Shown in pieces: positions 1,296 to 35,620 of a stretch of 64,000 nt of DNA. Within the stretch, counting starts at the first letter, position 1. Each line of letters opens with the position of its first letter. The translations under genes and the position numbers were made by a program. The notes under the pieces are model-generated. The model did not search any database and had not been told where the DNA came from. It saw nothing but the letters and a program-made list of their open reading frames with translations. The stretch spans positions 3,219,733 to 3,283,732 of the forward strand of contig CP012157.1 of the NCBI GenBank assembly GCA_001602455.1. The letters are read 5' to 3'. The stretch comes from Betaproteobacteria bacterium UKL13-2. Lineage in GTDB: Bacteria; Pseudomonadota; Gammaproteobacteria; Burkholderiales; Usitatibacteraceae.

Positions 1296-1348
1296 TCGAT
1301 CAACCCAAATATAAAAGTTATTCTTGTCCACGCGCAACTCACCAAACG

Positions 1349-2542: not shown

Positions 2543-3678
2543 CGCTGCGCACCGAAGAGCATGCGATCTGCTAACGCACGGCGCACCGCCGGAAGCATAT
2601 CGACAGCCGCCAGTGCGGCCCCGCGCGGCCAGCGCAGCAATGCCGAATCGCCCATAAATGCGCTGGCCAGCAAATCAGTGAATCCAATCCCTGTTGAAAT
2701 ATCGGGCTCGCGCGCCTGGGCGTAGGCACGAAGCGCTGTCTGGACATCTGCCTCCTGCGTAAACGCATTTGCTAACGTCGCGGCATCGCGCAAACCGAGA
2801 TTGAACCCTTGCCCGGCCACCGGGTGCATCGCTTGCGCGGCATTGCCGATCATGACCACTTTATCGACGACGCGAGCACTTACCTGCCGTAACGTCAATG
2901 GGTAACGGCGCCGCTGACCGAGCGCCACAAATTGACCTGCGCGGCGACCGAAGTGTGTCTGAAATCGCGCCCTGACTGCGTCATCATCAAGCGTCATCAG
3001 CTCGTCGATGGTCTCGTGGCTGGCAACCCAAACCATCGAGAAATCTTTGGTGCCAGTGTATGCCGGAAGTAGCGCCGCCGGTCCTTGCGGCGTGAACCGC
3101 TCGTATGCAGTAAAGCGATGGTCGCGGTCAGCAACAAGGTGCGCCAGCATGGCCGACTGTCCATAGTCTTTTTCGTTCAGCGAAATCGATGGAAGCTTAT
3201 CTAGATTCGCGCCTCCGTCTGCCATGACGATGACATCCCCACTCGCCTCATGCGAGCCTGTTTCATCAGCATAGGTGAGCGATGCTGATCCAGAATTGAG
3301 TGTTTGCACCCGCACGCTAAATTGTGTCTGAATAGAATTCGTCGCGAGCGCACGGTCAAGCGCATCTTGTAGCGCGGCGTATGCCACAACATATCCTAAC
3401 GCTGGAACGCTCGCATCCTCGCGTCGCAGCATGACGCGACCAAATCCGCCTTTATGCGAGGTGTGAATCGCGTGGATCTCGGTTGGCTGAAGCGCTTGCC
3501 CCCATACGCCCGCCTTCTCCAGCAAGATACGCGAGCCGTGTGAGAGCGCCAGCGTGCGGGTTTCCGTGGAGGGACCTTTGCGCGCATCGATAAGTGATAC
3601 GTCCAGTCCGTGCGCCTTTGCCAATAGCGCAAAGGTTGCGCCAACGGGTCCGGCACCGATTACGAGAACGTGAGACAT
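2539..3678 (-). CDS. ubiH: UbiH-like 2-octaprenyl-6-methoxyphenol hydroxylase
   Basis: This 379-residue flavin monooxygenase of ubiquinone synthesis has the FAD motif VIGAGPVGATFA, a middle AYERFTPQGPAALLP segment that closely resembles E. coli UbiH, and the second FAD motif MIGNAAQAMHPVAGQGFNLG. The ATG at 3678 is preferred over a TTG one codon earlier. It lies 26 bases after pepP and overlaps the next hydroxylase by 4 bases. In E. coli pepP and ubiH are also neighbours, which supports the ubiH name over a generic family name. Confidence 0.87.
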   Translation of the reverse strand: MSHVLVIGAGPVGATFALLAKAHGLDVSLIDARKGPSTETRTLALSHGSRILLEKAGVWGQALQPTEIHAIHTSHKGGFGRVMLRREDASVPALGYVVAYAALQDALDRALATNSIQTQFSVRVQTLNSGSASLTYADETGSHEASGDVIVMADGGANLDKLPSISLNEKDYGQSAMLAHLVADRDHRFTAYERFTPQGPAALLPAYTGTKDFSMVWVASHETIDELMTLDDDAVRARFQTHFGRRAGQFVALGQRRRYPLTLRQVSARVVDKVVMIGNAAQAMHPVAGQGFNLGLRDAATLANAFTQEADVQTALRAYAQAREPDISTGIGFTDLLASAFMGDSALLRWPRGAALAAVDMLPAVRRALADRMLFGAQR

Positions 3679-3704
3679 CAAGTCATCTCGCTGGCACGGG
3701 TTCG

Positions 3705-5051
3705 TTAGCCTGCTGCCAGCGCGGTCGCGGCTTCGACATCCTTAACCGCTTTAGGACACGACGCCGTCAAATTTTCGTTGCCCTTCTTCGTCACCAGAAT
3801 ATCGTCCTCGATACGCACACCAATGTCCCAAAAAGCCTTCGGCACATTGTCCGCCGGGCGGATATAGATGCCGGGCTCGACCGTCACCACCATACCCGGC
3901 TCTAGGCTCACCCACTTGCCATTTGCTTGCCGGTAGTGACCGGCGTCATGCACGTCGAGGCCGAGCCAATGGCCGGCGCGATGCATATAGAACTGTTTGT
4001 AGGCTTCAGTTTCGATGACGCTGGCGAGGCTGCCCTTGCATAACTTCAGATCAATGAGGCCCTGCGCGAGCACGTTAACCGCCACCTCATGATATTTGCC
4101 GAATGGATTACCCGGCTTCACCGCCTTGATACACGCGAGTTGCGACTCAAGCACCAACTCGTAGATGTCACGCTGTGCGGGTGAAAATTTACCGGCGATC
4201 GGAAACGTCCTCGTGATATCTGCCGCATAACTTTCCAACTCGCAGCCAGCGTCAATGAGCATCAGTTCGCCTTTTTTGAGCGGTGCGCTGTTCTCACGAT
4301 AGTGCAGCACGCAGGCGTTACCGCCAGCGGCGACAATCGAGCCATAAGCCGGCTGACGCGCCCCGTTGCGGATAAATTCGTGCAGCAGCTCCGCTTCTAC
4401 TTGGTACTCGTACATTCCCGGTTTTGCCATCCGCATGGCACGGGTATGCGCGTCCGATGAGATTTTTCCGGCGCGGCGCATGATGTCGATTTCTGTCTCA
4501 TCCTTAATCAAGCGCTGAAAATCAATTTGACGGCGAACGTCGTGGACTTCCGACGGTGCCGTAATACCTTGGCGAACCTTGGCGCGCACGGCATTGAGCC
4601 ACTTCGCAATCGATGCATCCCATTCAGCGTCTGCACCGACTGGCGTATGGATCACCGCTTGGTTGCTCATCAAGTCCGGCACAAGCCGATCGAGTTCTGC
4701 AATCGGATAACACTCGTCGAAGCTGAAAATCTCCTTTGCCATCGTCGGCCCGAAACGAAAGCCATCCCAAATCTCGCGCTCAATGTTTTTCTCGCGGCAG
4801 AAAAGAATATGGCGCGGTTTTTTGCCTAACGTAATCGCCACCACCGCTTCCGGTTCGCGGAAGCCGGTGAGGTAGTAGAAATAGCTGTCCCAGCGGTAAT
4901 CGTAGTGCGTGTCGGCGTTACGCGCGGCTTCCCGCGATGTCGGCAGCAACATCAAGCCTTCTTTGAGCGACTTGGCCAATCGCTGGCGACGCTTGAGGTG
5001 TGGCGCAATGTTTGGGACAACGACGGGCAACGGCAAGTTTTCGCGTTTCAT
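3705..5051 (-). CDS. pepP: Xaa-Pro aminopeptidase PepP
   Basis: This cytoplasmic metallopeptidase removes an N-terminal residue that precedes proline. The 448 residues contain an N-terminal creatinase-like domain and a C-terminal pita-bread domain. The five metal ligands are visible: the two Asp in MLIDAGCELESYAADITRTF, His in HRAGHWLGLDVHD, Glu in VVTVEPGIYI and Glu in GVRIEDDILVT. I chose the start at 5051 (MKRENLPLP) because the earlier start adds 17 residues without family support and the chosen length matches E. coli PepP (441 aa). It is the first gene of the ubiquinone cluster. Confidence 0.9.
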   Translation of the reverse strand: MKRENLPLPVVVPNIAPHLKRRQRLAKSLKEGLMLLPTSREAARNADTHYDYRWDSYFYYLTGFREPEAVVAITLGKKPRHILFCREKNIEREIWDGFRFGPTMAKEIFSFDECYPIAELDRLVPDLMSNQAVIHTPVGADAEWDASIAKWLNAVRAKVRQGITAPSEVHDVRRQIDFQRLIKDETEIDIMRRAGKISSDAHTRAMRMAKPGMYEYQVEAELLHEFIRNGARQPAYGSIVAAGGNACVLHYRENSAPLKKGELMLIDAGCELESYAADITRTFPIAGKFSPAQRDIYELVLESQLACIKAVKPGNPFGKYHEVAVNVLAQGLIDLKLCKGSLASVIETEAYKQFYMHRAGHWLGLDVHDAGHYRQANGKWVSLEPGMVVTVEPGIYIRPADNVPKAFWDIGVRIEDDILVTKKGNENLTASCPKAVKDVEAATALAAG

Positions 5052-5169
5052 ATGCGTGCTTTCGAATGCGTGATGGAGGCGGCCGGGTAAGTAGCAGGAC
5101 AAGTAGCCGGATAAGGGCGAGGTGAGTGACGGGATGAGTGACGGGAGGAGTGAAGCGCCGAGCGCAGCG

Positions 5170-5868
5170 TCAGGTCATTTTAGCGCCGAGGCGGTGTCTG
5201 AGCGACGCTAACTGCGAAGGTGTGCCGATATTTTCCCAACGCCCGCGGTAGTGTTCTGCGGACACACGATCATTCTCCACTAACGCATCCGCCCACGGAA
5301 ACAACCTCTCGTGTTTACCGACGGGCAAATCGCGAAAGACTTTGGGATGCCAACAAGTGATACCGGCAAAATTCAATCGCTGGCCGGTTCGTGTCGCCAG
5401 CCCGCCACGGATGGCAAAGTCACCCGCCAAGTGAAAAGGCGGGTTATCGGCAAGCACAAAGTGGGCATCGACTTCGCCCGCTTCAATCTTCTGCAAGACG
5501 GGCACGAGCGAGCCGTAGTCGAAGTCAGTAAAAACGTCACCACTCACAGCAACGAATGGCGTCCGGTCTGCTTCGTGGTCCGCCGAAAAGTCAGACACCA
5601 TTGCGCGAATGCCCCCCAATGTTTCCAAGGGCGCATCGCCTTCGTGATGCAATGTGATACGCGCACCGAAGCGCCGCCCGTTACCGATGGCTTGAATCCA
5701 CTGGGTCGAATGCACCGACGTGTTGATGGCAATGTCGACGAATCCAGCCTTCACCAGCGACGCTATTTGCCAAAACACCATCGGGCGACCAGCCACATCC
5801 AGTAACGGCTTCGGCGTGTGGTCGGTCAGCGGTCGCATGCGTGCGCCAAGACCGGCGGCAAGGATCAT
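5170..5868 (-). CDS. murU: MurU-like nucleotidyltransferase (MurNAc-1-P uridylyltransferase)
   Basis: This 232-residue enzyme should convert N-acetylmuramate-1-phosphate and UTP into UDP-MurNAc, bypassing the fosfomycin target MurA. It begins with the signature MILAAGLGARMRPLT followed by KPLLDVAGRP, with a VSGDVFTDFD metal site near the middle. Length agrees with Pseudomonas MurU (about 223 aa). The frame is open far upstream, but that part is repeat DNA, so the ATG at 5868 is chosen. The gene for the preceding pathway step, amgK, lies just upstream on the same strand; a 134-bp MITE and a REP hairpin have come between them. Confidence 0.85.
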   Translation of the reverse strand: MILAAGLGARMRPLTDHTPKPLLDVAGRPMVFWQIASLVKAGFVDIAINTSVHSTQWIQAIGNGRRFGARITLHHEGDAPLETLGGIRAMVSDFSADHEADRTPFVAVSGDVFTDFDYGSLVPVLQKIEAGEVDAHFVLADNPPFHLAGDFAIRGGLATRTGQRLNFAGITCWHPKVFRDLPVGKHERLFPWADALVENDRVSAEHYRGRWENIGTPSQLASLRHRLGAKMT

Positions 5869-5884
5869 CGCACGGTACTTCAAC

Positions 5885-6018
5885 GGGAACTTCTCGAAAC
5901 CGTCGCGAGCGGGCGAAGTCCGAGCCGACGGGTTTGGCAAACACGGGACACGTACCCAGTGTACGGCGAGCACCGGAGCTGACAGATTCGCCCACGCAGT
6001 AGGTTTATAGAAGTGCCC
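5885..6018. repeat. MITE-like element, copy A (134 bp)
   Basis: The element starts with GGGAACTTCT and ends with AGAAGTGCCC, a 9/10 terminal inverted repeat. The similarity between the arms continues inward for about 32 bases (AAACC and GGGCGAA are shared). The same sequence recurs at 23887-24020 and, inverted, at 35423-35555. It has no coding capacity of its own. It sits between murU and amgK, so it separates two genes that would be expected to be co-transcribed. No target duplication is obvious here. Confidence 0.85.
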
Positions 6019-6040
6019 AAAAGGCAAAAGGCAAGCAAAG

Positions 6041-6085
6041 ACAGGCATCTTGAAGCAAAAATGGCTGCAAACGCCCGTCCATAGC
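6041..6085. repeat. REP-like hairpin repeat, copy a
   Basis: This is a member of a roughly 45-bp family with the pattern GGCGGGCATCTTCA..TTTTG..TGAAA..CGCCCG..ATAG. This copy reads ACAGGCATCTTGAAGC, then GGCTGCAAACGCCCGTCC. It starts 22 bases after MITE copy A. Other copies are at 13586, 22930, 24040, 35576, 39588 and 55877. Confidence 0.6.
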
Positions 6086-6115
6086 CGAGTTTGAATACTT
6101 GACCTGATCGCACCA

Positions 6116-7159
6116 CTAAAAAGACACCCCGCTTGTCCGGGCCAGGCCGTCGTCAATCTTGAGTTGATCAAACAATCGAGCCAACGGGAACAATGGGCTG
6201 TAACGCTCGCAGCACTTTCGAATGTAGCGCGCAAATCGTGGCGTATCGCCGAGGTACCTCGGCTTGCCATCGCGGTAGTTGATGCGGGCAAAAATTCCCA
6301 TGACCTTCAAATGGCGCTGCAACGCCATCCACTCAACATCGCGATAGAAGTCACCAAAATCATGCGGTACGGGCAGCCCGGCGCATTTGGCCTTTTCCCA
6401 GTAACGCACGGTGCCATCAAGGATGATCTCTTCTTCCCACGAAACGAACGCGTCGCGCCACAAACAGGCGATGTCGTAGCCGATGGGGCCGTACAGGGCG
6501 TCTTGGAAATCGAGCACACCCGGGTTCGGGCTCGATGCCATCAAATTGCGCGGCATAAAGTCGCGGTGCACATACACACGCTGTTGCGCGAGATTTGACG
6601 CAATCACCGTCGAGAACACTGACTCCATAGTTTCGCGCTGTTGTTGAGTCAGCTCGACTTGCAGATGTTTCGCCACGTACCAATCCGGAAACAACGATAT
6701 TTCCCGCCTTAGCACCGCCTCATCGTAGGCAGGCAGGGTGTCGGGCTTGGAAGCCAGTTGCCACTTCACAAGACTATCGGTGGCGTCGCGCATCAAGGGG
6801 CTGACATTATCCGCGTTGATGACATCGAGATAGGTTTCGCGCCCCAAGTCGGTGAGCAACAAAAATCCCCGCTCAATATCTTGCGCAAAGACGGTGGGAG
6901 TATTCAGCCCGGCGTCGGCCATCATGCGGCCAATTCGAACAAACGGGCGGCAGTCTTCTTGAGGGGGCGGCGCATCCATCGCGATGACTGTTCCGCCCTC
7001 GTGGGTTATGCGAAAATAGCGCCTGAAACTTGCGTCTGCTGATGCTGGCGCAAGTTGACCGTCGGCAACACTGTCTCCGACGGCGGCCTTTACCGCTGCC
7101 GAGGTAAGCCAAGCTGATAATTCGCGTAGACGCAGGTCTTCCGCTTCGATTGATTTCAT
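6116..7159 (-). CDS. amgK: AmgK-like amino-sugar kinase (MurNAc/GlcNAc 1-kinase)
   Basis: This 347-residue protein of the aminoglycoside-phosphotransferase fold should phosphorylate MurNAc at C1 in the cytoplasm, feeding MurU. It shows the catalytic loop VYVHRDFMPRNLM and the metal-binding VLDFQDALYGPIGYD, plus an N-terminal DASFRRYFRI segment like the nucleotide-binding loop of AmgK. The ATG at 7159 (MKSIEAEDLRLRELSAWL) is preferred over an upstream start at 7273. It is divergent from lptD, an arrangement also seen in Pseudomonas relatives. Assignment rests on the motifs and on murU next door. Confidence 0.87.
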   Translation of the reverse strand: MKSIEAEDLRLRELSAWLTSAAVKAAVGDSVADGQLAPASADASFRRYFRITHEGGTVIAMDAPPPQEDCRPFVRIGRMMADAGLNTPTVFAQDIERGFLLLTDLGRETYLDVINADNVSPLMRDATDSLVKWQLASKPDTLPAYDEAVLRREISLFPDWYVAKHLQVELTQQQRETMESVFSTVIASNLAQQRVYVHRDFMPRNLMASSPNPGVLDFQDALYGPIGYDIACLWRDAFVSWEEEIILDGTVRYWEKAKCAGLPVPHDFGDFYRDVEWMALQRHLKVMGIFARINYRDGKPRYLGDTPRFARYIRKCCERYSPLFPLARLFDQLKIDDGLARTSGVSF

Positions 7160-7177
7160 CTGTTTTCCAACACAAAT

Positions 7178-9598
7178 TTGCGCGAATTTTATCACCCCCA
7201 CACCAACGCATGCTGTTTGGGCACCTGCCATTGCCCTCAAACGACGAGGTGGCCGAGCCCCATCAAGCAGCACCAGCGCTCGTATCAGACGCTCATCAGC
7301 ATTGCGGTGTGTTCCGCGCTTGCGTCATTCTCGTCCACGAGTCAGGGGCAAACCTCCACCCCGCCCAGCCAGACCGAACTCGACGACGCCATTCGAGAGG
7401 GCTTAAAAACAGACCGCGTTTTGCCAACGCCTGGGGGTACTGTCCTACCCCGCAAAGGTGGCGGCCGCCGTACGATTGAAGCGGACCAGATCGAGGGGAT
7501 CAATCAAAAGCGCGCTGTGGCGTCCGGCAAGATAGTCATGACGCAGGACAACATGACGCTTCTTGCCGACCGCATCGACTACGAACGGGACACCGACACC
7601 GTCAATGCCAGCGGTAATATTCGGATGGATCGTGATGGTGACATCGTCACCGGAAAGTCGATGGTTCTCGCGCTCGACGCCGACACCGGCTTTGTTGACA
7701 GCCCCATATTCATGTTCGGCAAATCGCCGCTGAGACCAACGCAGCGTTATGAGGTGTTTGGTGAAGCGACACGCATGGATTTCGAGGGACCCAACAAAGA
7801 GCGGCTGTTTGCCACCACCTACACCACCTGTCGGCCAGGCGAAAACGAATGGGTGTTAAAGGTAGGTGAACTCGGGCTCGACCGCACGACAAACATCGGG
7901 ACGGGATACAACGCCTACGTTGAGTTTAAGGGCATCCCGATCATGTATGCGCCCTTCATGACCTTTCCACTGAACAACGAACGCCGCTCGGGCTTCATGC
8001 CGCCCTCCTTCGGAAGCTCATCGAAAAGCGGTGGCGAATTCGCGATACCCTACTATTGGAATATCGCACCAGACACCGATGCAACCATCACACCCAAAAT
8101 TTTTACGCGACGCGGGATACAACTAGGCACCGAGCTACGCTACCTGAGGCCGACCGCATTTGGTCAGCTCGATGCGGAGTTTTTACCGAATGATCGCAAG
8201 GCAGACAAGAATCGACTGCTGTTGTCGATACGGCACTTCCACAATCTTAGTGACCTCATCGGCCGCGGATGGAGCGGGACGGTCAACGCACAAAAAGTGT
8301 CTGACGATGACTACTTCCGCGAACTTTCCACCCGCATTTCCAACACGACCCAGACAAACTTGCCTCGCGATATTGCCCTGAACTATGCGTCGGATTTTGG
8401 TCACTTCAACCTACGAAAACTCAGCTTTCAAACCTTGCAAGACCCGCTCGCGCCAATTGTTACGCCCTACAAGCTACAGCCACAACTTACGTTCAACGCA
8501 CGGCCAGCGCGCCTTCAAGGCATCGAGTTCAATACCGTGGGCGAGTATTCAGATTTCCGTCACCCGACCTTGGTCAACGGCGAGCGATTGCTGTTTTATC
8601 CATCAGCGGCATACCCGATTACCCGACCGTTTGGCTTTATCACGCCCAAAATTGGCTACCACATCACGCGCTATCAGCTCACAAAAAACGAGACCGGCTT
8701 CGAAGGCGGCAATCGAGCGCTGCCAATCATGAGTGTCGATAGTGGTTTGGCATTTGAGCGTCCGATTCGTCTTTTCGACCAGTCCATCACGCAAACGCTC
8801 GAACCCAGATTGTTTTATCTTTACGTCCCCTATCGTAACCAGTCGAAGTTGCCGCAGTTCTCAACCTCAGAGACTGACTTCAATTTTGCGCAAATCTTCA
8901 ATGAAAATTTGTTTGTTGGTGGCGACAGAATTTCAGATGCCAAACAGCTCACAGCCGCCGTCACGACCCGCTTCATCGAGGACGCTAGCGGGATTGAACG
9001 ACTGCGTGCGGCACTCGGCCAACGCTACTATTTCCGCAATCAACAGGTAGCCTTGTCCGATACGGCACGCGGAATCACGTCGCCATCCAATCCAACGACG
9101 CCAGCACCGATCGCAAGCCGCTCCGACTTGCTTTTTGCGGTCAGCGGCCAAATGTCCGACGCATGGTCGCTCGACTCAAGCTTCCAGTACTCGACTTCTG
9201 GTTCTCGGTTTCAACGGTCTAACATTGGCGCACGTTACAACGCAGACGCCGGCCGCTTGATCAATTTTTCGTATCGCTACACCCGCGAAGACCTTAAACA
9301 AATCGACATTTCCACTCAGTGGCCATTCGGTCGGGCTGCGCCAGGATGGACACTGTTGGCGCGAGCGAACCACTCGTTGAAGGACAAGCGATTGCTCGAA
9401 GGGCTGTTGGGGGTCGAGTATAATCAGGGCTGCTGGGAATTGCGTATGGTCGCTCATCGCTTTACGACGGCGACAAACCAGTATTCGAACTCGATTCAGT
9501 TGCAACTTGAGCTGAAAGGGTTGTCGAAATTGGGAATCAACCCTTTCGAGACCATCAAGCAGAACATTGCTGGCTATCGGCGCTCTGATGATCGATGA
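7178..9598 (+). CDS. lptD: LptD, outer-membrane LPS assembly barrel
   Basis: LptD forms the outer-membrane barrel that inserts lipopolysaccharide with LptE. After a signal-like stretch, an OstA-type jelly-roll domain begins near residue 98 (IEADQIEGINQKRAVASGKI, then LLADRIDYERDTDTVNASGN). The rest is a long beta-barrel with repeated aromatic strand ends (for example FGFITPKIGYHITRYQL), and the C-terminal strands end in a LELKGLSKLGINPF pattern. About 806 residues fits the family. The start is uncertain: the listed TTG is the most upstream option and no ATG is in frame before the mature part. The stop overlaps an ATG upstream of surA. Confidence 0.9.
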   Translation: MREFYHPHTNACCLGTCHCPQTTRWPSPIKQHQRSYQTLISIAVCSALASFSSTSQGQTSTPPSQTELDDAIREGLKTDRVLPTPGGTVLPRKGGGRRTIEADQIEGINQKRAVASGKIVMTQDNMTLLADRIDYERDTDTVNASGNIRMDRDGDIVTGKSMVLALDADTGFVDSPIFMFGKSPLRPTQRYEVFGEATRMDFEGPNKERLFATTYTTCRPGENEWVLKVGELGLDRTTNIGTGYNAYVEFKGIPIMYAPFMTFPLNNERRSGFMPPSFGSSSKSGGEFAIPYYWNIAPDTDATITPKIFTRRGIQLGTELRYLRPTAFGQLDAEFLPNDRKADKNRLLLSIRHFHNLSDLIGRGWSGTVNAQKVSDDDYFRELSTRISNTTQTNLPRDIALNYASDFGHFNLRKLSFQTLQDPLAPIVTPYKLQPQLTFNARPARLQGIEFNTVGEYSDFRHPTLVNGERLLFYPSAAYPITRPFGFITPKIGYHITRYQLTKNETGFEGGNRALPIMSVDSGLAFERPIRLFDQSITQTLEPRLFYLYVPYRNQSKLPQFSTSETDFNFAQIFNENLFVGGDRISDAKQLTAAVTTRFIEDASGIERLRAALGQRYYFRNQQVALSDTARGITSPSNPTTPAPIASRSDLLFAVSGQMSDAWSLDSSFQYSTSGSRFQRSNIGARYNADAGRLINFSYRYTREDLKQIDISTQWPFGRAAPGWTLLARANHSLKDKRLLEGLLGVEYNQGCWELRMVAHRFTTATNQYSNSIQLQLELKGLSKLGINPFETIKQNIAGYRRSDDR

Positions 9599-22815: not shown

Positions 22816-22984
22816 TGGTTGTACGTTGGGGCAACAAGCAGAGGTAACCTTAAAACTGTCGTCCCGGATGAGCATGGCGAAATTCCGGGACCCAAGTTTG
22901 CAGCATCTGTGTAGAGGGAACTCTAATATCGACGAGCATCTTCAGGCAAAACCGTTTGAAACTGTCCGTGAATGCTAGGGTTTG
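22816..22984. repeat. Direct repeat flanking vapBC, copy 1 (without MITE)
   Basis: The sequence from TGGTTGTACGTT through CTTAAAACTGTCGTCCCGG to AATGCTAGGGTTT recurs in the same orientation at 23787-24095 with only scattered differences. Here GAGGGAACT joins directly to CTAATATC. In the second copy the 134-bp MITE plus a few bases lies at that point. REP-like copy f is at 22930-22975. Confidence 0.85.
22930..22975. repeat. REP-like hairpin repeat, copy f
   Basis: The copy reads GACGAGCATCTTCAGGC, then AAACCGTTTGAAACTGTCCG. It sits in the direct repeat that lacks the MITE. Confidence 0.55.
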
Positions 22985-23090: not shown

Positions 23091-23489
23091 CTACCAAAGA
23101 CATTTCACGCGAAACAATTTCATCGCGGCGTCGTCTGTGACCAGCGTCGCGCCTTCGGCAAGCGCCTGCGCCGCGAGCATGCGGTCGAACGGGTCGCGAT
23201 GATTCACGTCAAAACTGCCGGCTCGGAGCGCGTGCCGCGCATTGATGGCGAGGTGTTCAAATCCGTCAGCAACCAAGAGCATCTCAAACTGGTCAATCGC
23301 CGTTTGTGCCCCCGGCAATTTGCCAATTCGAAACTTGGTCGCGATTTCCCAAGCGCTGGCCGCACTCACTAAAACGGAATTGGCTTCATCAGCCATGGCT
23401 TTGGTTGCACGCTTGCTTAACCTCGCATCAGCGGCCCACCACCAAAGTAAAGCGTGTGTATCCAGCAACAGCTTCAACGCGGCTCCCAC
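23091..23489 (-). CDS. VapC-like PIN-domain toxin
   Basis: This PIN ribonuclease toxin of up to 132 residues has the acidic active-site pattern: LLLDTHALLWWW at the N-terminus, the Glu in SAASAWEIATKFRIGKL, HRDPFDRMLAAQA, and ATLVTDDAAM near the end. Substrates in the family are often tRNAs. The GTG at 23489 overlaps the antitoxin by 16 bases; a TTG at 23477 (KLLLDTHALL) would also be plausible. The module lies between two direct repeats next to an insertion sequence, which suggests acquisition. Confidence 0.88.
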   Translation of the reverse strand: MGAALKLLLDTHALLWWWAADARLSKRATKAMADEANSVLVSAASAWEIATKFRIGKLPGAQTAIDQFEMLLVADGFEHLAINARHALRAGSFDVNHRDPFDRMLAAQALAEGATLVTDDAAMKLFRVKCLW

Positions 23490-23701
23490 GCCTTGAGATC
23501 TGCACTGGGGAGCGGATCAAAGAACGCTTTATCGTTGATGCCCTTCAGCCGGCCGGGCTGGCGCTTCGACGTGGCAGGTGCCAACGGCATCATGCGCGCA
23601 TAAGGCTTGCCCGCTTTCGCCAGAATGATTTCTTTACCAGCATGGGCTTGATCCAGCAGCTTTGAAAATTGCGTCTTGGCATCGTGAACGTTGACGATCA
23701 T
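23474..23701 (-). CDS. Phd/YefM-type antitoxin
   Basis: The 75-residue protein begins MIVNVHDAKTQFSKLLDQA, the standard Phd/YefM fold start, followed by IILAKAGKPYARMMPL. It should bind and neutralise the PIN toxin through its C-terminal tail and repress its own promoter. It is first in the operon, as expected, and overlaps the toxin gene. Confidence 0.88.
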   Translation of the reverse strand: MIVNVHDAKTQFSKLLDQAHAGKEIILAKAGKPYARMMPLAPATSKRQPGRLKGINDKAFFDPLPSADLKAWEPR

Positions 23702-23886
23702 GTTGCGTTCTTTAGTGGTTGTGGAAGGTGCCAGTTTGACTTAGTCCATCAACTTAGTCAACTTACGCAGCCGGCTGCAACCCTTGTGGTTGTACGTTCG
23801 GGCAACAAGCAGAGGCAACCTTAAAACTGTCGTCCCGGATGAGCATGGCGAAATTCCGGAACCCAAGTTTGCAGCATCTCCGTGGA

Positions 23887-24020
23887 GGGAACTTCTCGAA
23901 ACCGTCGCGAGCGGGCGAAGTTCGTGCCGACGGGTTTGGCAAACACGGGGCACGTACCCAATGTACGGCGAGCACCGCAGGCGCGAAATTCGCCCACGCA
24001 GCAGGTTTATAGAAGTTCCC
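23887..24020. repeat. MITE-like element, copy B (134 bp)
   Basis: This copy has perfect 10-bp terminal inverted repeats, GGGAACTTCT and AGAAGTTCCC, and is in the same orientation as copy A. It is inserted in the second vapBC-flanking repeat. REP-like copy g begins 20 bases downstream. Confidence 0.9.
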
Positions 24021-24039
24021 GAGAAGCAAACTCTAATAT

Positions 24040-24086: not shown

Positions 24087-24195
24087 AGGGTTTTTCAAGA
24101 AAATCGGGCGCTCATGGCCCCTTTAACTTATAAATGGTGTCTGACCCCAATTTACAATCTCAAACAACGGCAGTCGGAATTAAAGGGGTCAGCGA

Positions 24196-25716
24196 CTCAT
24201 GGCACTACCTTAAGCGATTTTTGCCATGAAAGCGCACGGAAAGAAAGCTGGCTGAGAGCCTTCACTTGTTAAGATGCTGGTATCTAACATCAACGTCAAA
24301 ACAGAAAGGATCAGCCATGTGTGACGATACCAAAAAAACGCCTACAGTCGAGCGTTTTTCGTTTCAAGCAGTTTGTCGCCGAAGCCCCCGGCGCGGCAAT
24401 GAGCGAGGCAATACCACTGGCGCGGCTACAATCGATTGTTAATCTTGAGGTCGGCAGCTACCGTGACCGGCTCTACCCACCGTTGACGACACTGGGGCTA
24501 TTCATTGAGCAGAGTCTGTCTGCGGATGGCGCGTGCCAAGATGCCGTCGCCCGATACCTGAGCGCACGCCATGCGCGGGATCAAGCCCCTTGCAGCCTCA
24601 ACACCGGCCCTTACTGCAAAGCGCGCCAGCGGTTACCGATTTCGCTGGTAGAACAGCTGAGCGCGACCATTGGAGAGCGTCTGGAGCAATCCGCACCGAG
24701 TCAATGGCGCTGGCGAGGGCGGCGCGTCAAGCTCTTGGATGGCACCACCGTCTCGATGCCGGATACACCGGCCAATCAAGCGGCATATCCACAAAGCGGC
24801 GAACAAGCACCAGGACTAGGATTCCCGTTCGCACAACTCGTCGGCCTCCTTTCCTTGGCCACCGGTGCGGTGCTCGGTGTCGCGATGGGGTCCACCAAGG
24901 GCAAGGGTAGTGGCGAGCAAGCGCTATTTCGTGAACTGATGCCACAGCTCGACAGTGGAGACGTGATTTTGGTGGATCGCTATCACTGCACTTACTTCAC
25001 CATTGCCATGCTGTTGGCGCGTGGCGTCGATATCTTGACCCGACAACACCAGAAGCGCTTAACCTCTCCGGAGGCGATCATCGAGACCTTCGGCGGCGGC
25101 GACCGCTTGGTACGATGGGTGCGACCGCAGCGCCCGAAGTGGATGGACGCCAAGCAGTACGCCACGATGCCCGAAGAACTCATCGTTCGTCAGACCGAGG
25201 TAGGTGGTCGCGAGCTGGTGACCACACTCGTCGACGCCAAGCGCGTCTCAACGAGTGATCTCGATGCGCTCTATCGCAAGCGCTGGATGATCGAGGTTGA
25301 CTTCCGCAGCATCAAATCCGAGATCGGCATGGATATCCTGCGCAGCAAGTCGCCGGAGATGGCCAGAAAGGAAGTTGCTGTCCACCTGCTGGCCTATAAC
25401 CTGATCCGCTCACTCATGGTGCGTGCCGCCGTGCTGGCCCACGTCCTGCCGCGTGCCTTGAGCTTCAAGGCCACACTTCAGCTTTGGCACGCCTTTAGCC
25501 AACAATGGCGATGGCATCTAGGTGAGGCCACAGAATCCGTCGTGACGGCAATGCTTCGTGCAATTTCAACGAGGATCATTCCGCATCGACCAGACCGAAT
25601 AGAGCCTCATGCCGTCAAGCGACGACCAACAACGCATGCCTACTTGACAGTCCCACGTGATCAAGCCCGAGCCGCTATCCTCGAAGCGCGAAAATCGCTT
25701 AAGGTAGTGCCATGAG
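24196..25716 (+). mobile_element. IS4-family insertion sequence, apparently complete (1521 bp)
   Basis: The element is bounded by perfect 26-bp inverted repeats: left 24196-24221 beginning CTCATGGCACTACCTTAAGC, right 25691-25716. The 9-bp sequence GGTCAGCGA directly flanks both ends (24187-24195 and 25717-25725) and is the likely target-site duplication; 9 bp is within the range known for IS4 relatives. It encodes one intact transposase. The undamaged ends and duplication suggest recent insertion. Confidence 0.88.
24321..25715 (+). CDS. IS4-family DDE transposase
   Basis: The 464-residue transposase shows the first acidic motif KLLDGTTVSMPDT, the second in DVILVDRYHCTYF, and the Y-2-R-3-E-6-K signature as YRKRWMIEVDFRSIK near residue 315, followed by EVAVHLLAYNLIRSLM. 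This signature defines the IS4 family. The listed start is a GTG; an ATG at 24317 with better ribosome-site spacing is in another frame. The stop codon lies inside the right inverted repeat. It appears functional. Confidence 0.9.
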   Translation: MTIPKKRLQSSVFRFKQFVAEAPGAAMSEAIPLARLQSIVNLEVGSYRDRLYPPLTTLGLFIEQSLSADGACQDAVARYLSARHARDQAPCSLNTGPYCKARQRLPISLVEQLSATIGERLEQSAPSQWRWRGRRVKLLDGTTVSMPDTPANQAAYPQSGEQAPGLGFPFAQLVGLLSLATGAVLGVAMGSTKGKGSGEQALFRELMPQLDSGDVILVDRYHCTYFTIAMLLARGVDILTRQHQKRLTSPEAIIETFGGGDRLVRWVRPQRPKWMDAKQYATMPEELIVRQTEVGGRELVTTLVDAKRVSTSDLDALYRKRWMIEVDFRSIKSEIGMDILRSKSPEMARKEVAVHLLAYNLIRSLMVRAAVLAHVLPRALSFKATLQLWHAFSQQWRWHLGEATESVVTAMLRAISTRIIPHRPDRIEPHAVKRRPTTHAYLTVPRDQARAAILEARKSLKVVP

Positions 25717-25903
25717 GGTCAGCGACGATTTGTTTTGTGCGGTCGACACACGCCTCAAAAATTGTCGCTGACCCCTTTAATTTTCTCTTTCCGCTCGAGA
25801 AACTAAAGACGCGGGGCACGTATTCGTCGTGTTGCGACCGCGAATAAATATATCGACGCTGCCCCCTTAAATTTCCTTTGATTTCCTTCAACTTCCGTCA
25901 ACC

Positions 25904-26584
25904 TTAGAGCAGACCTTGGCTCTGCAATGCGGCTCGAACTTGCGGATTCTGTAGCGTTTTCCGGAATTGGCCAAGAAAGTTGAGATCAAACTTCTGCGCA
26001 GCAATTTCGGAAGCGAGAAAGGGATAGAAGCGCCGCAGTTCACTCATCGACAATCTGTTTTCTACGTAAGCGTACACAGCCCGCGCTCGCTCGTTGACAT
26101 ACTGATCATCAGAATTCAATCCAAGGCGATTAATGGTTTGGACAACAGCGTTAGCGTCTGCGGCCTTCAGGTTTGAGTCGGGTTCAAGCGAAAACGTAGC
26201 AAAATTTATTCGAAACCAGCCGTTGGAAATAACATATGGATCCAATACGTCTTGAAAGTTATCCTTTCGGTTATTCAGTTTTGCTCGGCAAAGTCTGAAA
26301 TTGTTCCAGTCGTACGCGAGCTTGCTATCCACCGTCTTAGGAACAAAGTGGTCGACACTCGTATGGTCGGGCCCTTTTCCCTGTCGCCTGGGGGTGAACG
26401 ACGCGGAGTAACAACAAATTCCGTTCATCGCCGTGTACAACGGCGAGTGAATGTGTCGCCAATAGTTATGTTTTGACCATTGGTGTCTTGTTGGGTTTGG
26501 CGTCGTCGACAGAAAAACTGCGCCAGGCACCTCGACCGACTGTTGGTAGGTTTGCGGCGGGAGTGGGGGTGTTATAGGAATCAA
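25904..26584 (-). CDS. HNH endonuclease, PtuB-like, of a putative defence operon
   Basis: This 226-residue protein carries an HNH-type nuclease core: SVDHFVPK (His 79), then AYDWNNFRLCRAKLNNRKDNF with the conserved Asn residues at about 94-105. The spacing resembles the HNH partners of Septu (PtuB) and retron-associated nucleases. Preceding paired cysteines (ICCYSASF) are short of a full zinc set. The best start is the TTG at 26584, which overlaps the ATPase stop by 4 bases and has GGGGTGGAG upstream; a TTG at 26629 is also open. It is last in the methyltransferase-ATPase-HNH operon. It probably cuts DNA or tRNA when the ATPase is triggered (inference). Confidence 0.72.
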   Translation of the reverse strand: MIPITPPLPPQTYQQSVEVPGAVFLSTTPNPTRHQWSKHNYWRHIHSPLYTAMNGICCYSASFTPRRQGKGPDHTSVDHFVPKTVDSKLAYDWNNFRLCRAKLNNRKDNFQDVLDPYVISNGWFRINFATFSLEPDSNLKAADANAVVQTINRLGLNSDDQYVNERARAVYAYVENRLSMSELRRFYPFLASEIAAQKFDLNFLGQFRKTLQNPQVRAALQSQGLL

Positions 26585-28470
26585 ATCTCCACCCCTTTCA
26601 CGTTTGCAAAAATCACCCAGCGAAGCCAAAAGGGATCTTCCGGCGAAAGGTATTGAGCTAAACGGGAAGTAACGTCACGGACTTGTTTTACTGTCGGTTC
26701 TCTTGCGTCCATCAGCGCCTTAGCCGCGGCTAATGCCTCCTCTGCAGAAGTTGACCCAGGATGGGTAGCGTCAAATGATGGAGACAAAAGCCAGGCATCA
26801 GAACTGCCACGAATCTCAAACGCAAGCTCATCAAGTTCTACTGAGCCAAAGTCATTGAGTTGCAAATGAAATAGCCGGTCGGAATCAGTGTCCCAAATTG
26901 GCTCCGCCGAGGCGAGAACAGTGGGTGAATGCGTGGCAAGGAAGTACTGAATAGAAAGGTCTTCGTGCAAATCATTCGCGATTTGAAGTAACGACTTGAG
27001 CAGAACGCGTTGCCATTTTGGATGAAGGTGCGATTCAGCTTCGTCGATAATTATTGCCATTTGCCGCTCTTCTCTGCGGCCCTGTAACTTCGCAAGATGC
27101 CGGTGTTCCTCCCACGCCCAGACGATTAAGTACGCAAGTGTAAGAATTCGCTTTACCCCAGCTGACTCGTAAACAATTGGGACCTCGCCATACGGATGGA
27201 TAATTGTGGGCACTTCCATCGTCCAGCCGGGAACACGCACGGGCCGTCCTACCGCAAACTCCTTGAGATCGGGTGGTTTGGCATGTTGAAGAATTCTCTC
27301 AAACGTCTTAAACGCAGATGACTCATTCGCTCTGGTCTGCCATCTCACTACATCCCGCAATAGTCCCTCGGTTTCGTCGTTGCCGTTCCAAACACTTTCT
27401 CGAGTTAAAGATACGCATGAAGTCTTTTCAACCAACCCCTGGTTGCTTGGTGCGGAGCGCTTGAGCGGATCCCAAATCGCGAATGACCCGTCCACTCGGG
27501 CATAAATGACTAAGCCGGACAGGGCTGAAACTTTGGGCACCTTCCATGCGGTTAACTTACTGTCGAAGACCGCCTTCACCTTCGCGCTTTCAGAATGGCC
27601 CGATACAGAAAACTGTATTGTGGGCGGCGTAGCCGAATCCTTGAGTGGCCGCGCAACGTGATCCGGCCATTCCCGCGTGAGCGCCCACCAAATAATATCG
27701 AGGAGGAAAGTTTTCCCGAGCCCGTTGTCTCCCGTAAAAATATTCAGACGGGAGCCTGGATGCAGGCTCATTCTTTTTGTTGGCCCAATACCTTCAAACG
27801 CCAAATACTGAAGAATCGCACCACTTTCTGGTAGTACATCCGGTGGCACGCCGTAACCTTCAATCAATTGCTCCCAACCAACTGGTCGTTCAGAAAAAAG
27901 CGCCTTGTCGCGCGAACTTAGTGGCGGAGGCTCAAATAGACGATCTACGACACGTTCATCTAGATGAAAGGTCTTAACGAATCGAACGACAACATTTTGA
28001 ATTGTCGCGGTTGGCTGCCAACCTTCCTCGCGCATGAACCAGACCGCAAAATCCACTAGAGGGAGGCGTCTACTGGGTGGTAAATGTTCCGCCAGAGCAG
28101 AAAGGAAATCTGGGCGCCAAGCCCAACGCCGCGTCCCTCGCTCGTGATCCAGCGCATCGCTAAACGCCTGCGTATTTATCGCTTGGAGCGACGTTGAAGC
28201 GTACTTAGGCCCGCGCCAGTGCCCATCAAGTTTTTTTGCTTTGAATGGGATAAAGAAATAGTCGGAACGGGGGTGCAGTCGAAAATATTTCCGAAGATGT
28301 TGTTTGTTTTCGGCGTCGAGCGCAACCTCCGCCATGGAATTTATTGGCAGATCGTTTTGGAGAAAGACAAGTAACGTCGTTCCGAAAAACACGTGGAAGT
28401 CGCTTAAGCTCGCCTGCGCCTCTCGAACGCGTGCCGCAGAGAGAAACTTAACGTCCAATTTGGTCTCCAT
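26581..28470 (-). CDS. AAA/ABC-type ATPase with novel N-terminal domain, PtuA-like
   Basis: The 629-residue protein has a P-loop ATPase of the SMC/ABC-like overcoming-lysogenisation type: Walker A GDNGLGKT (247-254), an ABC-like signature around YESAGVKRILTLAY (434-447), Walker B AIIIDEAESHLHP (472-484) and the switch histidine in FLATHSPTVLAS. This core resembles PtuA of Septu. Residues 1-215 form an extra domain with DYFFIPFKAKK and PKYASTSLQAINTQAF that I do not recognise. The start may be the ATG at 28470 or a TTG at 28458 with GGAG upstream. It overlaps the methyltransferase before it and the HNH gene after it. Confidence 0.75.
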   Translation of the reverse strand: METKLDVKFLSAARVREAQASLSDFHVFFGTTLLVFLQNDLPINSMAEVALDAENKQHLRKYFRLHPRSDYFFIPFKAKKLDGHWRGPKYASTSLQAINTQAFSDALDHERGTRRWAWRPDFLSALAEHLPPSRRLPLVDFAVWFMREEGWQPTATIQNVVVRFVKTFHLDERVVDRLFEPPPLSSRDKALFSERPVGWEQLIEGYGVPPDVLPESGAILQYLAFEGIGPTKRMSLHPGSRLNIFTGDNGLGKTFLLDIIWWALTREWPDHVARPLKDSATPPTIQFSVSGHSESAKVKAVFDSKLTAWKVPKVSALSGLVIYARVDGSFAIWDPLKRSAPSNQGLVEKTSCVSLTRESVWNGNDETEGLLRDVVRWQTRANESSAFKTFERILQHAKPPDLKEFAVGRPVRVPGWTMEVPTIIHPYGEVPIVYESAGVKRILTLAYLIVWAWEEHRHLAKLQGRREERQMAIIIDEAESHLHPKWQRVLLKSLLQIANDLHEDLSIQYFLATHSPTVLASAEPIWDTDSDRLFHLQLNDFGSVELDELAFEIRGSSDAWLLSPSFDATHPGSTSAEEALAAAKALMDAREPTVKQVRDVTSRLAQYLSPEDPFWLRWVIFANVKGVEI

Positions 28471-29365
28471 GCAGTTGCTTAACTATGTATTCGCAGAAGC
28501 TGGCGTTTAACTCGATTCCAATAGCGGGTAAGCCACGCCTTGTCGCGACCCGCATCGTCGTTCCACTGCCGGCAAACGGATCGAGCACTACCCCTCCTGG
28601 TTTGCAGCCCACCGTCAGACAACGCTCTACTAATTCGTCGGGGAAAGGCGCGGTATCTAACGCGCCGTTTGGTTTTGGTCGCGTGGATATCCGCCACACA
28701 TCTTCTGCCCAACTGTCGTTCGGCAAATCCTTTTTGTTGAAATAGTACTTTCTTGACTTGACGAACATGAACACGAACTCGTAAGAACGACTTGGTCTGT
28801 CTCTCGCCGTTGGTTCAACTAGACAATTGTCACGGTGCCAAACGATCGGCGATCTCAAAACCCAATTATCTAGGCACATTGCATTTGCGACTCGCCACGG
28901 TATTCCAATAATGGACTTCTTCTGCAATCCAATGCCAAGGCCACCACTTTTGTCTACAGCACGAAGACCAAACCGACGTTTCGTACTTTTCTTGTCGTTT
29001 CCATGTGCGGCGCCTTTTCCCGAATAGTAGGTATCACCAAGATTTAGAAATAGCACCCCGTCCTTCGTTAACTTAGAGCGCACTTTCTCCATTACCTCCT
29101 TTATTGAAGCAACATATGCTTCTACACTGTCTTCGAGACCAATCTGCCCGTTCACCTTGTAGTCGCGCAGCCAAAAATAGGGGGGCGATGTAACCACACA
29201 GTTGATGCTCTCGTCATCAAGTTGATCAAGCGCCTCTTTCGCGGGCCCATTTATCAACCGCCATCCCGGGCTAGCGTCCGACTTCCATTCGACAATTCCA
29301 ATCCCATTGTCCGCAATTCCGATGTTTACAGGCCCAGACATATTCTGTGTTTCTTTAGATTTCAT
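28448..29365 (-). CDS. Beta-class DNA methyltransferase (N4-cytosine or N6-adenine)
   Basis: The catalytic motif TSPPYF is at residues 59-64 and the SAM motif DPFAGSGTT at 262-270, in the order of beta-class amino-methyltransferases. SPPY is most often seen in N4-cytosine enzymes, but N6-adenine cannot be excluded. The region between, with RPSRSYEFVFMFVKSRKYYF, is typical of restriction-modification methylases. At 305 residues it is self-contained. It heads the operon with the ATPase and HNH genes, so it probably marks self DNA for that module. No specificity subunit is nearby. Confidence 0.88.
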   Translation of the reverse strand: MKSKETQNMSGPVNIGIADNGIGIVEWKSDASPGWRLINGPAKEALDQLDDESINCVVTSPPYFWLRDYKVNGQIGLEDSVEAYVASIKEVMEKVRSKLTKDGVLFLNLGDTYYSGKGAAHGNDKKSTKRRFGLRAVDKSGGLGIGLQKKSIIGIPWRVANAMCLDNWVLRSPIVWHRDNCLVEPTARDRPSRSYEFVFMFVKSRKYYFNKKDLPNDSWAEDVWRISTRPKPNGALDTAPFPDELVERCLTVGCKPGGVVLDPFAGSGTTMRVATRRGLPAIGIELNASFCEYIVKQLHGDQIGR

Positions 29366-29453: not shown

Positions 29454-31142
29454 CTAATCCGTCACCGCCCCTTTGCTCGCCGTTCCCACCAACTTAAAGT
29501 ACTTGCCCAGCACACCACGGGTGTACCGCGGCGCAGGTGCTTTCCATTCGGCTCTGCGTCTTGCGATCTCGGCGTCATCCACATTCAGTTGAATCAACAA
29601 CTGCTTGGCATCGATGGTCACGGAGTCGTTTTCGCGCACGAGGCCGATGGTGCCGCCCACATACGCTTCTGGTGCCACGTGCCCGACCACCATGCCCCAT
29701 GTGCCACCAGAGAATCGGCCATCGGTAATCAAGCCCACGGTCTCGCCCAAGCCTTTGCCGATAAGTGCCGAGGTGGGCGCCAACATTTCGCGCATGCCGG
29801 GGCCGCCTTTGGGGCCTTCGTAGCGCAGCACGACCACGTCGCCATGTGTGATCTTGTCGGCCATGATGGCGTCCATCAATTCCGGCTCGGAATCAAACAC
29901 ACGTGCAGGCCCGGTGATGACGGGGTTTTTGAGGCCGGTAATTTTGGCCACACAGCCTTCGGGTGCGAGGTTGCCTTTCAGAATCGCCAAGTGGCCTTCT
30001 TTGTACATCGGGTTGTCGTATGGGCGAATCACATCTTGATCCGCCCGAGGTGCATCCGGAATATCGGCCAAGGTTTCGGCGATGGTTTTGCCGGTGATGG
30101 TCATACACTCACCAAACAAGAGGCCGGCTTTGAGGAGCATCTTCATTACCTGCGGCACACCACCGGCTTTGTGTAAATCCACCGCCACATATTTGCCGGA
30201 AGGCTTCAAGTCACAGAAGACACCAACTTTTTTGCGCACACGCTCGAAGTCATCAATCGTCCATTCCACATCAGCCGCATGGGCAATCGCTAGGAAGTGC
30301 AGCACGGCGTTGGTCGAGCCACCCACGGCCATGATGACCGAGACGGCGTTTTCGATGGATTTGCGGGTGACGATGTCGCGTGGCCGCAGGCCACTATTCG
30401 GCCCTTTTTTGACGGCCTCAACCAGCACGCGGGCAGATTCTGCGGTCGAGACCTTTTTCTCATCATCTTCCGCGGCCATGGTGGATGAATACGGCAGCGA
30501 CATACCAAGCGCCTCGAACGACGACGACATGGTGTTGGCGGTGTACATGCCACCACAGGCACCCACACCGGGGATGGCGTGGCGCTCGATACAACCAAAA
30601 TCTTCTTCGTTCATCTTGCCGGCGTTAAACGAACCCACCGCTTCAAACACGCTCACCACTTGCAGGTCTTTGCCTTTGTAGTGGCCGGGCTTGATGGTGC
30701 CGCCATAAACAAAGATGGCCGGGATATTCATGCGGCAAATGCCGATCATCGCACCCGGCATATTTTTGTCACAGCCGCCTATTGCCAATACGCCATCCAT
30801 AAATTGTGATTGGCAGGCGGTCTCAATCGAATCCGCAATCACTTCACGCGACACCAACGAATACTTCATGCCTTCGGTGCCCATCGAGATACCGTCGGTG
30901 ACGGTGATGGTGCCAAACATCTGCGGCATGCCGCCCGCGTCACGGATGGCTTTGTCGGCTGCGTCGGCCAGCGGCTGAATGCCGGCGTTGCACGGGTTCA
31001 TGGTGCTGTGGCCGTTGGCCAAACCAATGAAGGGCTTATAAAAATCGTTATCCTCGTAGCCGATGCCGCGCAGCATGGAGCGGTTGGGGGCGCGCTCAAC
31101 GCCCTGGGTGATGGTGAATGAGCGGTATTTAGGTGTGGTCAT
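29454..31142 (-). CDS. ilvD: Dihydroxy-acid dehydratase IlvD
   Basis: IlvD converts dihydroxy-acids to 2-keto acids in valine, leucine and isoleucine synthesis, using an iron-sulfur cluster. The 562 residues contain the cluster cysteines in [13 protein letters not shown] and [20 protein letters not shown], plus [19 protein letters not shown] near the C-terminus. The ATG at 31142 is preferred over a TTG three codons upstream. A Bug-type gene and then lgt follow on the other strand. Confidence 0.95.
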
Positions 31143-31236
31143 AGCGGCCAATGTACTTACGAATCAAAAAATGTTTGAATAGGTAAAGATTGTACCGGAT
31201 GGCCCGGTCGGGTCAGCCAAAACCCCTTGGACATGG

Positions 31237-35217: not shown

Positions 35218-35436
35218 ATGAAAAACTTCTTCACCGGACACCCGGAAACGGTCGGCGAAACGTACTGGCAGCACATGGCTGTGGCACTCAGCTTTGCAGG
35301 CGCGTTATTCGGTGCTGCGTTCGCCGCGCTGGTGCATGCGTTTTTTCCGGCGTGGTTTGAAAAGACCGCCAGCGCCAAAATCACTTATTTGCACGACCGC
35401 ATGTTGTGCAACCGGCGCAAGAGGGAACTTCTATAA
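35218..35436 (+). CDS. DUF6356-like small protein, 3' end altered by a MITE
   Basis: The 72-residue protein starts MKNFFTGHPETVGETYWQHM, has one hydrophobic segment (VALSFAGALFGAAFAALVHA) and then ASAKITYLHDRM, resembling the DUF6356 family of short membrane proteins; that family name is from memory. MITE copy C begins at 35423, so the last four or five codons (RELL and the stop) come from the repeat. The start has GGAG upstream (CACAAGGAGCTTAGGCC). The original C-terminus was probably a few residues different. Confidence 0.7.
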   Translation: MKNFFTGHPETVGETYWQHMAVALSFAGALFGAAFAALVHAFFPAWFEKTASAKITYLHDRMLCNRRKRELL

Positions 35437-35555
35437 ACCTGCTGCGTGGGCGAATTTCGCGCCTGCGGTGCTCGCCGTACACTGGGTACGTGTCCCGTGT
35501 TTGCCAAACCCGTCGGCACGAACTTCGCCCGCTCGCGACGGTTTTCGAGAAGTCC
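35423..35555. repeat. MITE-like element, copy C (inverted)
   Basis: This is the reverse complement of copies A and B: GGGAACTTCTATAAACC at the left and TTTTCGAGAAGTCC at the right, where a base is lost from the terminal repeat and one T is added inside. CAAG lies at both outer edges and could be a 4-bp target duplication, though this is weak. Confidence 0.85.
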
Positions 35556-35575
35556 AAGAATCAAACCACAAGGAA

Positions 35576-35620
35576 AGACGGGGGCTTTGAGGCAAAAGTG
35601 GCTGAAGACGCCCGTCCGTA
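35576..35620. repeat. REP-like hairpin repeat, copy c
   Basis: The copy reads AGACGGGGGCTTTGAGGC, then AAAAGTGGCTGAAGACGCCCGTCC. It lies 20 bases from the MITE although that MITE is inverted relative to copy A. Confidence 0.55.

Follow-up and report, generated by a model that had tools for sequence, protein, structure and literature searches.

A Septu-type PtuAB pair with an N-terminal domain and a linked DNA methyltransferase, a candidate restriction-modification system in Betaproteobacteria bacterium UKL13-2

The stretch analysed here (the window) comprises 64,000 nucleotides of Betaproteobacteria bacterium UKL13-2 (contig CP012157.1, positions 3,219,733 to 3,283,732), and on its minus strand are three overlapping genes which encode a DNA methyltransferase (MTase), a PtuA-type ATPase and a PtuB-type HNH nuclease. 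This cassette is probably a restriction-modification system in which the restriction enzyme is the PtuAB pair of Septu with an added recognition domain. The proposed target-recognition domain is the N-terminal domain (NTD) of PtuA, ~211 residues that precede the ATPase in the window protein. The MTase carries catalytic motifs, and a nuclease is linked to it in the window and in nine other distinct loci.

In the proposed mechanism, the MTase would methylate the host genome at a specific site, which the NTD would read in its unmethylated state. Binding of the NTD to foreign DNA would cause the PtuA ATPase to assemble or become active, using ATP, and activated PtuA would license PtuB to cut the unprotected DNA. 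The genes with their motifs, the recurring operon and the joint occurrence of NTD and MTase on two chassis are observed, while we infer that the NTD binds DNA at the site of the MTase, that methylation blocks the binding and that PtuAB cuts DNA rather than tRNA. The NTD and the MTase would together form a specificity cassette which could be mounted on two unrelated chassis, PtuAB (ATP, HNH) and McrBC (AAA+, PD-(D/E)XK).

A domain and a methyltransferase family found with two types of ATPase

The strongest evidence for this interpretation comes from McrB-type ATPases, on which the NTD also occurs, beside an MTase of the same family. At locus L153 (loci are referred to by our own numbers) the NTD is on an AAA_5-type ATPase and is 36% identical to the window NTD over 149 residues (BLASTP E 4e-20); the MTase is 53% identical to that of the window, and a weakly McrC-like gene (E 0.028) lies in between. 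L071 has the NTD (E 1.3e-13) on an AAA_5 protein; its 404-residue neighbour resembles PDDEXK_7 weakly (E 0.075), and an N6_N4_Mtase gene converges on the two. The NTD of L072 (E 3e-7) is part of a protein that in its other half matches solved McrB (1.8e-33), and a C5 MTase adjoins. In this cyanobacterial locus (5683-9154) a PIN-type toxin-antitoxin-like pair was seen by eye at the place expected for McrC.

Plasmid neighbourhoods of the MTase were determined for 5 of 154 records, the four best-listed among them. The four best-listed MTases (46-52% identical), from Mycobacterium paragordonae, Sphingobium, Mesorhizobium and Roseibium, are followed by an AAA ATPase and then a third gene, which Pfam identifies as McrBC in Sphingobium, Mesorhizobium and Roseibium; that of M. 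paragordonae has no Pfam match. The fifth, H10 (42%), has other neighbours. The NTD matches weakly in the three McrBC cassettes (E 4e-7, 4e-4 and 9e-4), and none was found in plasmids by tblastn. In a profile-profile comparison (A1-A6) the NTDs of Sphingobium, Mesorhizobium, Roseibium and L144 matched the PtuA NTD at 92.6% over 59 columns, and the four control pairings gave at most 1.0%. L144 (3978-7906) is on a virus contig with portal-like genes, and carries an MTase-McrB-McrC-like cassette with a related NTD, the third gene and the neighbours being assigned by eye.

Virus contigs with the MTase include both chassis, as the best 4 of 31 (49-57% identical) partner either PtuA (L082, and L152 which is the contig of L019) or an AAA_5-type ATPase (L153 and L154, where the NTD likeness of L154 is by eye only). 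The other 27 (at most 47%, one of them with no MTase frame called) gave no NTD, PtuA or McrB-type match in the stretch examined. The PtuA-linked MTases are not one clade (approximately unbiased test, p 0.0033), because L080 and L081 fall outside the group in which the other PtuA-linked MTases join five of the six McrB-linked ones, in a tree that contains long branches.

Scans with PtuA or NTD queries yielded 22 distinct loci of PtuA with the NTD. An intact MTase is directly upstream in 10 of these, in the order MTase-PtuA-PtuB with tight or overlapping joints: the window, Trinickia (Pseudomonadota; L002), the cyanobacteria L004, L005, L006 and L008, two genomes of the window's phylum (L080 and L081) and two virus contigs (L019, where PtuB falls beyond the contig end, and L082). 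In L012 (Desulfobacterales, Thermodesulfobacteriota) the MTase runs into the contig end. Ten loci are without an MTase (L003, L007, L009, L011, L020 and L075-L079), and in L010 it is debris with stops. Outside this count are L126, from the genus of L075-L079 and also without an MTase, and the truncated N-terminal pieces L073 and L069. As the gene order recurs in distant genomes, the module is not a chance arrangement, and it is not the case that the ATPase and HNH homologues never occur with the MTase, one of the two findings by which the original prediction was to be refuted.

None of the 22 PtuA loci that lack the NTD has an MTase of the window's family (profile A4) alongside. These are 14 loci and a further eight from one cyanobacterial genus (about 1.5 kb upstream each); L013 and L016 have fewer than 250 bases upstream, and L121 and L122 are the same protein. 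L013, which has a broken frame, and L122 were excluded from the tree. On this sample of loci the MTase goes with the NTD and not with Septu as such, since the 22 NTD-less loci are without it. The MTase had originally been taken as a partner of the Septu genes, and it is indeed a recurring one, but the tie is to an NTD which had been overlooked.

A broader statement, that no MTase at all lies beside NTD-less PtuA, is too wide because one neighbour is PglX, the BREX MTase. This was the one PglX among the matches listed in a PADLOC scan of 63 of the 79 neighbour open reading frames (ORFs) of 13 NTD-less loci, and is probably L118:610-4020, directly upstream of the L118 PtuA, given its size and place. 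In L118 (Aeromonas caviae, 610-5919) the NTD-less PtuAB pair is apparently inside a BREX system, behind a pglX-like gene (the member being assigned from size). The corresponding scan of 46 of the 68 neighbours of 11 MTase-free NTD loci produced one match to a Type II MTase model, which is taken to be the C5-like ORF L078:3-1163.

Fisher tests of MTase against NTD gave 0.006 by locus (10/21 versus 0/11) and 0.005 after lineages were grouped by hand; these count related loci as independent and are a guide only, and the tree has just two changes in the presence of the NTD. In the core tree L019, a long branch with NTD and MTase, groups with L014, which has neither (support 99/95), so that this pair differs in both at once.

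Homologues with the NTD align to the full PtuA profile from position 1, and those without it from 206-218 onwards; the fragment L016 aligns from 295, its contig beginning inside the gene. The PADLOC profile PDLC00270 itself spans the NTD, and proteins of this type are already filed as Septu by PADLOC, hence they are not new as Septu. The window NTD has no Pfam family (the best of 12 copies gave E 0.06, which is chance level), and no PDB match was found at E 10 in a profile search, with one chance match at E 1 from a widened profile. A wider NTD profile (A5) detected only two already known loci in 349 genomes of the window's phylum.

Weighing the readings

The original prediction of self/non-self marking combined with an ATP-dependent nuclease is still the best reading, because the ATPase and HNH proteins are PtuA and PtuB by profile and the MTase recurs. 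Several observations count against restriction-modification, the main one being that NTD-PtuA and PtuB persist without an intact neighbouring MTase in three groups of the core tree (12 loci): L003 with L012, whose MTase is cut by the contig end; L007, L009 and L010; and L011 with L020 and L075-L079. Such lineages weigh against an obligatory MTase-nuclease pair, as a lethal nuclease should not survive without its MTase, barring another protecting MTase or altered specificity. No close MTase relative was found in the genomes of L003, L007, L009 and L010 (best E 1e-11 to 1e-18, the latter being debris). Some PtuB proteins of the third group are truncated (L077 and L020), and the case for DNA binding by the NTD comes from the company that its gene keeps. 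Furthermore, a related PtuAB, that of retron Eco7, degrades tRNA-Tyr according to the available text of PMC11555353.

In the third group, five of the seven genomes searched (L011, L075, L076, L078 and L126) encode a distant intact MTase relative elsewhere. It scores about 190 bits in three pieces, compared to 213-222 for the most distant PtuA-linked MTases and 559 for a window-type MTase copy in the positive control G491. The genome of L077 has a weaker relative only and that of L079 none at E 1e-10. Protection by an MTase in trans is therefore possible in some genomes of this group, but it cannot be the same enzyme in all. The cyanobacterial genus with the MTase-free NTD-PtuAB also has an NTD-less PtuA elsewhere (L129-L136), in 8 of 16 genomes searched.

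The alternative that survives best, although we consider it unlikely, is a methylation-guarded abortive effector, in which PtuAB would be a toxin acting on tRNA or on any DNA and quieted by the NTD while host sites are methylated, so that phages which block methylation or replace the host DNA would trigger a growth stop. PrrC, which guards a type I system, is a parallel. The gene architecture and the NTD-MTase link would be as for restriction-modification, and the Eco7 pair is toxic alone and neutralised by its retron partners, as the accessible part of PMC11555353 reports. However, direct restriction of DNA is what enzymes with the McrBC chassis do, and the same NTD and MTase occur on that chassis; moreover, the MTase-free lineages survive.

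It is less probable still that this is plain Septu with a hitch-hiking MTase, that is, an ordinary PtuAB next to which an independent gene, orphan or self-protective, has been acquired. That PADLOC names both proteins PtuA and PtuB, that the MTase is absent from all 22 NTD-less loci and that NTD-PtuAB is kept without it in three groups would all fit. Against this, the link recurs in Trinickia, cyanobacteria and virus contigs with the gene order unchanged and the genes closely spaced or overlapping, the MTase family accompanies the NTD onto McrBC-type genes, and part of the NTD differs in constraint between one clade with the MTase and one group without it, as follows.

In the MTase-free group L020 and L075-L079 the ATPase cores are 96-98% identical, and the NTDs 68-75% in 13 of 15 pairs, with indels (the exceptions are L020-L077 at 97% and L075-L078 at 86%). 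For NTD columns 56-118 the nonsynonymous divergence (dN) is 0.26-0.45 and the synonymous divergence (dS) 0.13-0.72 in 13 of 15 pairs, compared to a dN of 0.009-0.019 and a dS of 0.06-0.12 in the core; the other two pairs share an NTD allele in these columns (dN 0.000 and 0.014). The higher dS of the NTD points to allele exchange as well as selection. The full-length PtuB proteins of L075, L076, L078 and L079 fall into two allele classes (62-64% identical between and 87-88% within), which, beside near-identical PtuA cores, is a hint of allele exchange. The MTase-free pair L007/L009 has diverged too little (dN 0.041, dS 0.053) to be informative.

The MTase-linked clade L004, L005, L006 and L008 has a dN of 0.05-0.09 and a dS of 0.26-2.84 over the same columns in its six pairs, and is more variable from column 119 to the core (dN 0.10-0.25). 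By these estimates, from one group on each side and short stretches, columns 56-118 are strongly constrained in the cyanobacterial clade that has the MTase, and hypervariable in one group that lacks it, which is the pattern expected if a partner MTase locks a target-reading surface. Divergence of the NTD correlates with that of the MTase with a Spearman coefficient of 0.77, and that of the core with a nominally lower 0.67, both over 45 non-independent pairs.

A type IV-like reading, in which the NTD reads a methylated site, the MTase marks or competes at targets and the MTase-free lineages are modification-dependent enzymes, is very improbable: such lineages exist, their NTDs vary fast in one group and McrB-type NTDs elsewhere read modified bases (available portions of PMC7680126 and PMC11090510), but the enzyme would cut its host in a cell with its own MTase, and the MTase-linked McrBC systems LlaJI and PcaI act, in the accounts available, on unmodified sites.

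There is no settled account of how Septu distinguishes invader from host: PtuAB is reported to target nicked phage DNA in one case and tRNA-Tyr in another. If the cassette is a restriction-modification system, PtuAB has apparently been given an address here, in the form of a recognition domain with a matching MTase, which makes PtuAB activation testable. It would also add a new family of recognition domain that serves two nuclease engines of unrelated type, and lineages that have or lack the MTase would amount to a natural experiment on the evolution of such a domain. We see an even chance that a wider view holds, in which PtuAB and McrBC can stand in for each other as the engine of a single exchangeable cassette, made up of a new DNA-reading domain and its MTase, and the window system is the first restriction-modification system to run on an ABC/SMC-like ATPase with an HNH partner. 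Loss of the MTase would then mean that the domain is no longer tied to a single site and becomes hypervariable, so that the same domain would restrict at a fixed site in one lineage and act as a diversifying sensor in another.

The cassette and its genomic setting

The three frames are open at the coordinates predicted originally, and their overlaps, their motifs and conservation in homologues bear out the description as a beta-class MTase, a PtuA-like ATPase and an HNH nuclease (Table 1). PADLOC profiles name all three proteins. The MTase matches Pfam N6_N4_Mtase (136 bits) and PADLOC MTase_II PDLC03387 (255 bits). Placing TSPPY before DPFAGSGTT is the order of the beta class, and a TSPPY motif points towards N4-cytosine. 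Profile matches in the PDB include the DNA cytosine-N4 methyltransferases 8s9m/8s9n and PvuII as well as adenine MTases, and the modified base may be N4-cytosine or N6-adenine, with the former somewhat more likely.

The ATPase also matches Pfam AAA_15/AAA_21. Its DEAESHLHP motif is kept throughout the 12 PtuA rows aligned, the window among them, and Walker A varies by one residue in MTase-free cyanobacterial copies, at least in L076 (GDNGF). The HNH protein has no Pfam match above the cut-off and is named by its PADLOC profile. Translation of ptuB most likely starts at the TTG at 26584 rather than at 26629, because 12 homologues start with M-I at the overlap; with this start ptuA and ptuB overlap by 4 bases, and the MTase and ATPase frames by 23.

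Table 1. Coordinates of the cassette, its motifs and neighbouring features in the window
Feature	Position	Strand	Remarks
PIN/VapC-like toxin	23091-23489	-	
Antitoxin frame	23474-23701	-	
IS4-family insertion sequence	24178..25782		19-nt perfect terminal inverted repeat; transposase 24321-25715 (+)
PtuB-type HNH nuclease	25904..26584	-	PADLOC PDLC00348, 180 bits; mechanical ORF extends to 26629
HNH core SVDHFVPK ... N ... N..K	26264..26359	-	D83, H84, F85, K88, N100, N109 and K112 invariant in 13 PtuB rows, window copy among them
PtuA-type ABC/SMC-like ATPase with N-terminal extension	26581..28470	-	629 residues; PADLOC PDLC00270, 625.5 bits, residues 9-629
PtuA ATPase core, about residues 218-629	26584..27819	-	NTD-less homologues align from 206-218
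Walker B region IIIDEAESHLHP	27019..27054	-	D476, E477, E479, H481, L482, H483 and P484 invariant in 12 PtuA rows
Walker A GDNGLGKT, residues 247-254	27709..27732	-	Invariant in 12 PtuA rows aligned
PtuA NTD, residues 1-211	27838..28470	-	Proposed target-recognition domain
MTase	28448..29365	-	305 residues; beta-order motifs TSPPY then DPFAGSGTT
ilvD-like gene	29454..31151	-	Context; 3' side is accessory-gene insertion site; cassette follows gene

The G+C content of the cassette is about 49-52% per 800-base window, compared to mostly 54-60% in its surroundings. There is one copy in the 3.39 Mb genome, and none in the 99 other genomes searched as relatives. Promoter and terminator scans were near chance (4 versus 3.2 and 6 versus 4.9, respectively), and no tRNA was found in the window.

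The ilvD-like gene was found in six of 12 same-genus relatives searched, and in all six (L146-L151) unrelated accessory genes lie 3' of it. By eye these include pairs that resemble toxin-antitoxin systems and, in L146, an MTase-like ORF. Two relatives have the tail of ilvD in duplicate (204 bases in L147 and 133 bases in L149). Given these unrelated genes and duplicated tails, the region 3' of the ilvD-like gene seems to be a hotspot of insertion. The insertion sequence and the toxin-antitoxin pair, whose antitoxin we take to be of a Phd-like family, had been read as the neighbours expected in a defence island. Both are present, but they look incidental to the cassette, since none of the accessory genes that the six relatives have after ilvD are related to them. 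The pair is flanked by 107-base repeats that are 94% identical (22816-22922 and 23787-23893), and a translated piece from about 23.8-24.0 kb (23763-24029) recurs near 35.3 kb (35294-35590).

Comparison with known systems

No published system with these three genes was found in the open-licence literature. The cassette shares with Septu type I a PtuA-type ATPase (PDLC00270) with a PtuB-type HNH gene (PDLC00348) directly downstream, both identified by profile and in the same order, and differs by the NTD on PtuA and the linked MTase. The PADLOC paper, in the text available (PMC8565338), describes type I and a type II with a reverse transcriptase, and no type with an MTase.

Retrons of type I-A (Ec78/Eco7) have related PtuA and PtuB proteins (PDB sequences 9vkz, 9kjx and 9e8z), but the window proteins score 59 bits against an NCBIfam cut-off of 500 for PtuA, and 34 against 150 for PtuB. 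No reverse transcriptase is among the neighbouring genes read (MTase, ilvD-like, IS4 transposase and toxin-antitoxin), and no search aimed at msDNA was made.

BsuMI is a restriction-modification system of McrBC type. LlaJI, as its available description has it, is McrBC-like, uses a B3 domain to recognise an asymmetric site in unmodified form, and has a partner MTase; PcaI, likewise McrBC-like, is paired with an MTase that resembles Dcm, and its target is unmethylated DNA. The NTD could share the B3 fold of LlaJI, although a sequence-profile search of the PDB gave it no match. A census of McrBC systems (eLife 2024) reports frequent association of McrB GTPases with DNA MTases and modular specificity domains; Septu has 0 occurrences in its main text and the PtuAB chassis is not covered, as far as the text available extends (PMC11090510). 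The cassette does not encode the McrB AAA+ GTPase and McrC nuclease that define McrBC: its motor and nuclease are PtuA (ABC/SMC-like, AAA_15/AAA_21) and an HNH PtuB as the third gene, rather than AAA+ McrB and PD-(D/E)XK McrC. What it shares with LlaJI, BsuMI and PcaI is the combination of an MTase, a nuclease and an ATPase with an N-terminal domain (DNA-reading in the McrBC-type systems and putatively so here), and the same NTD and MTase family also occur on the McrBC chassis.

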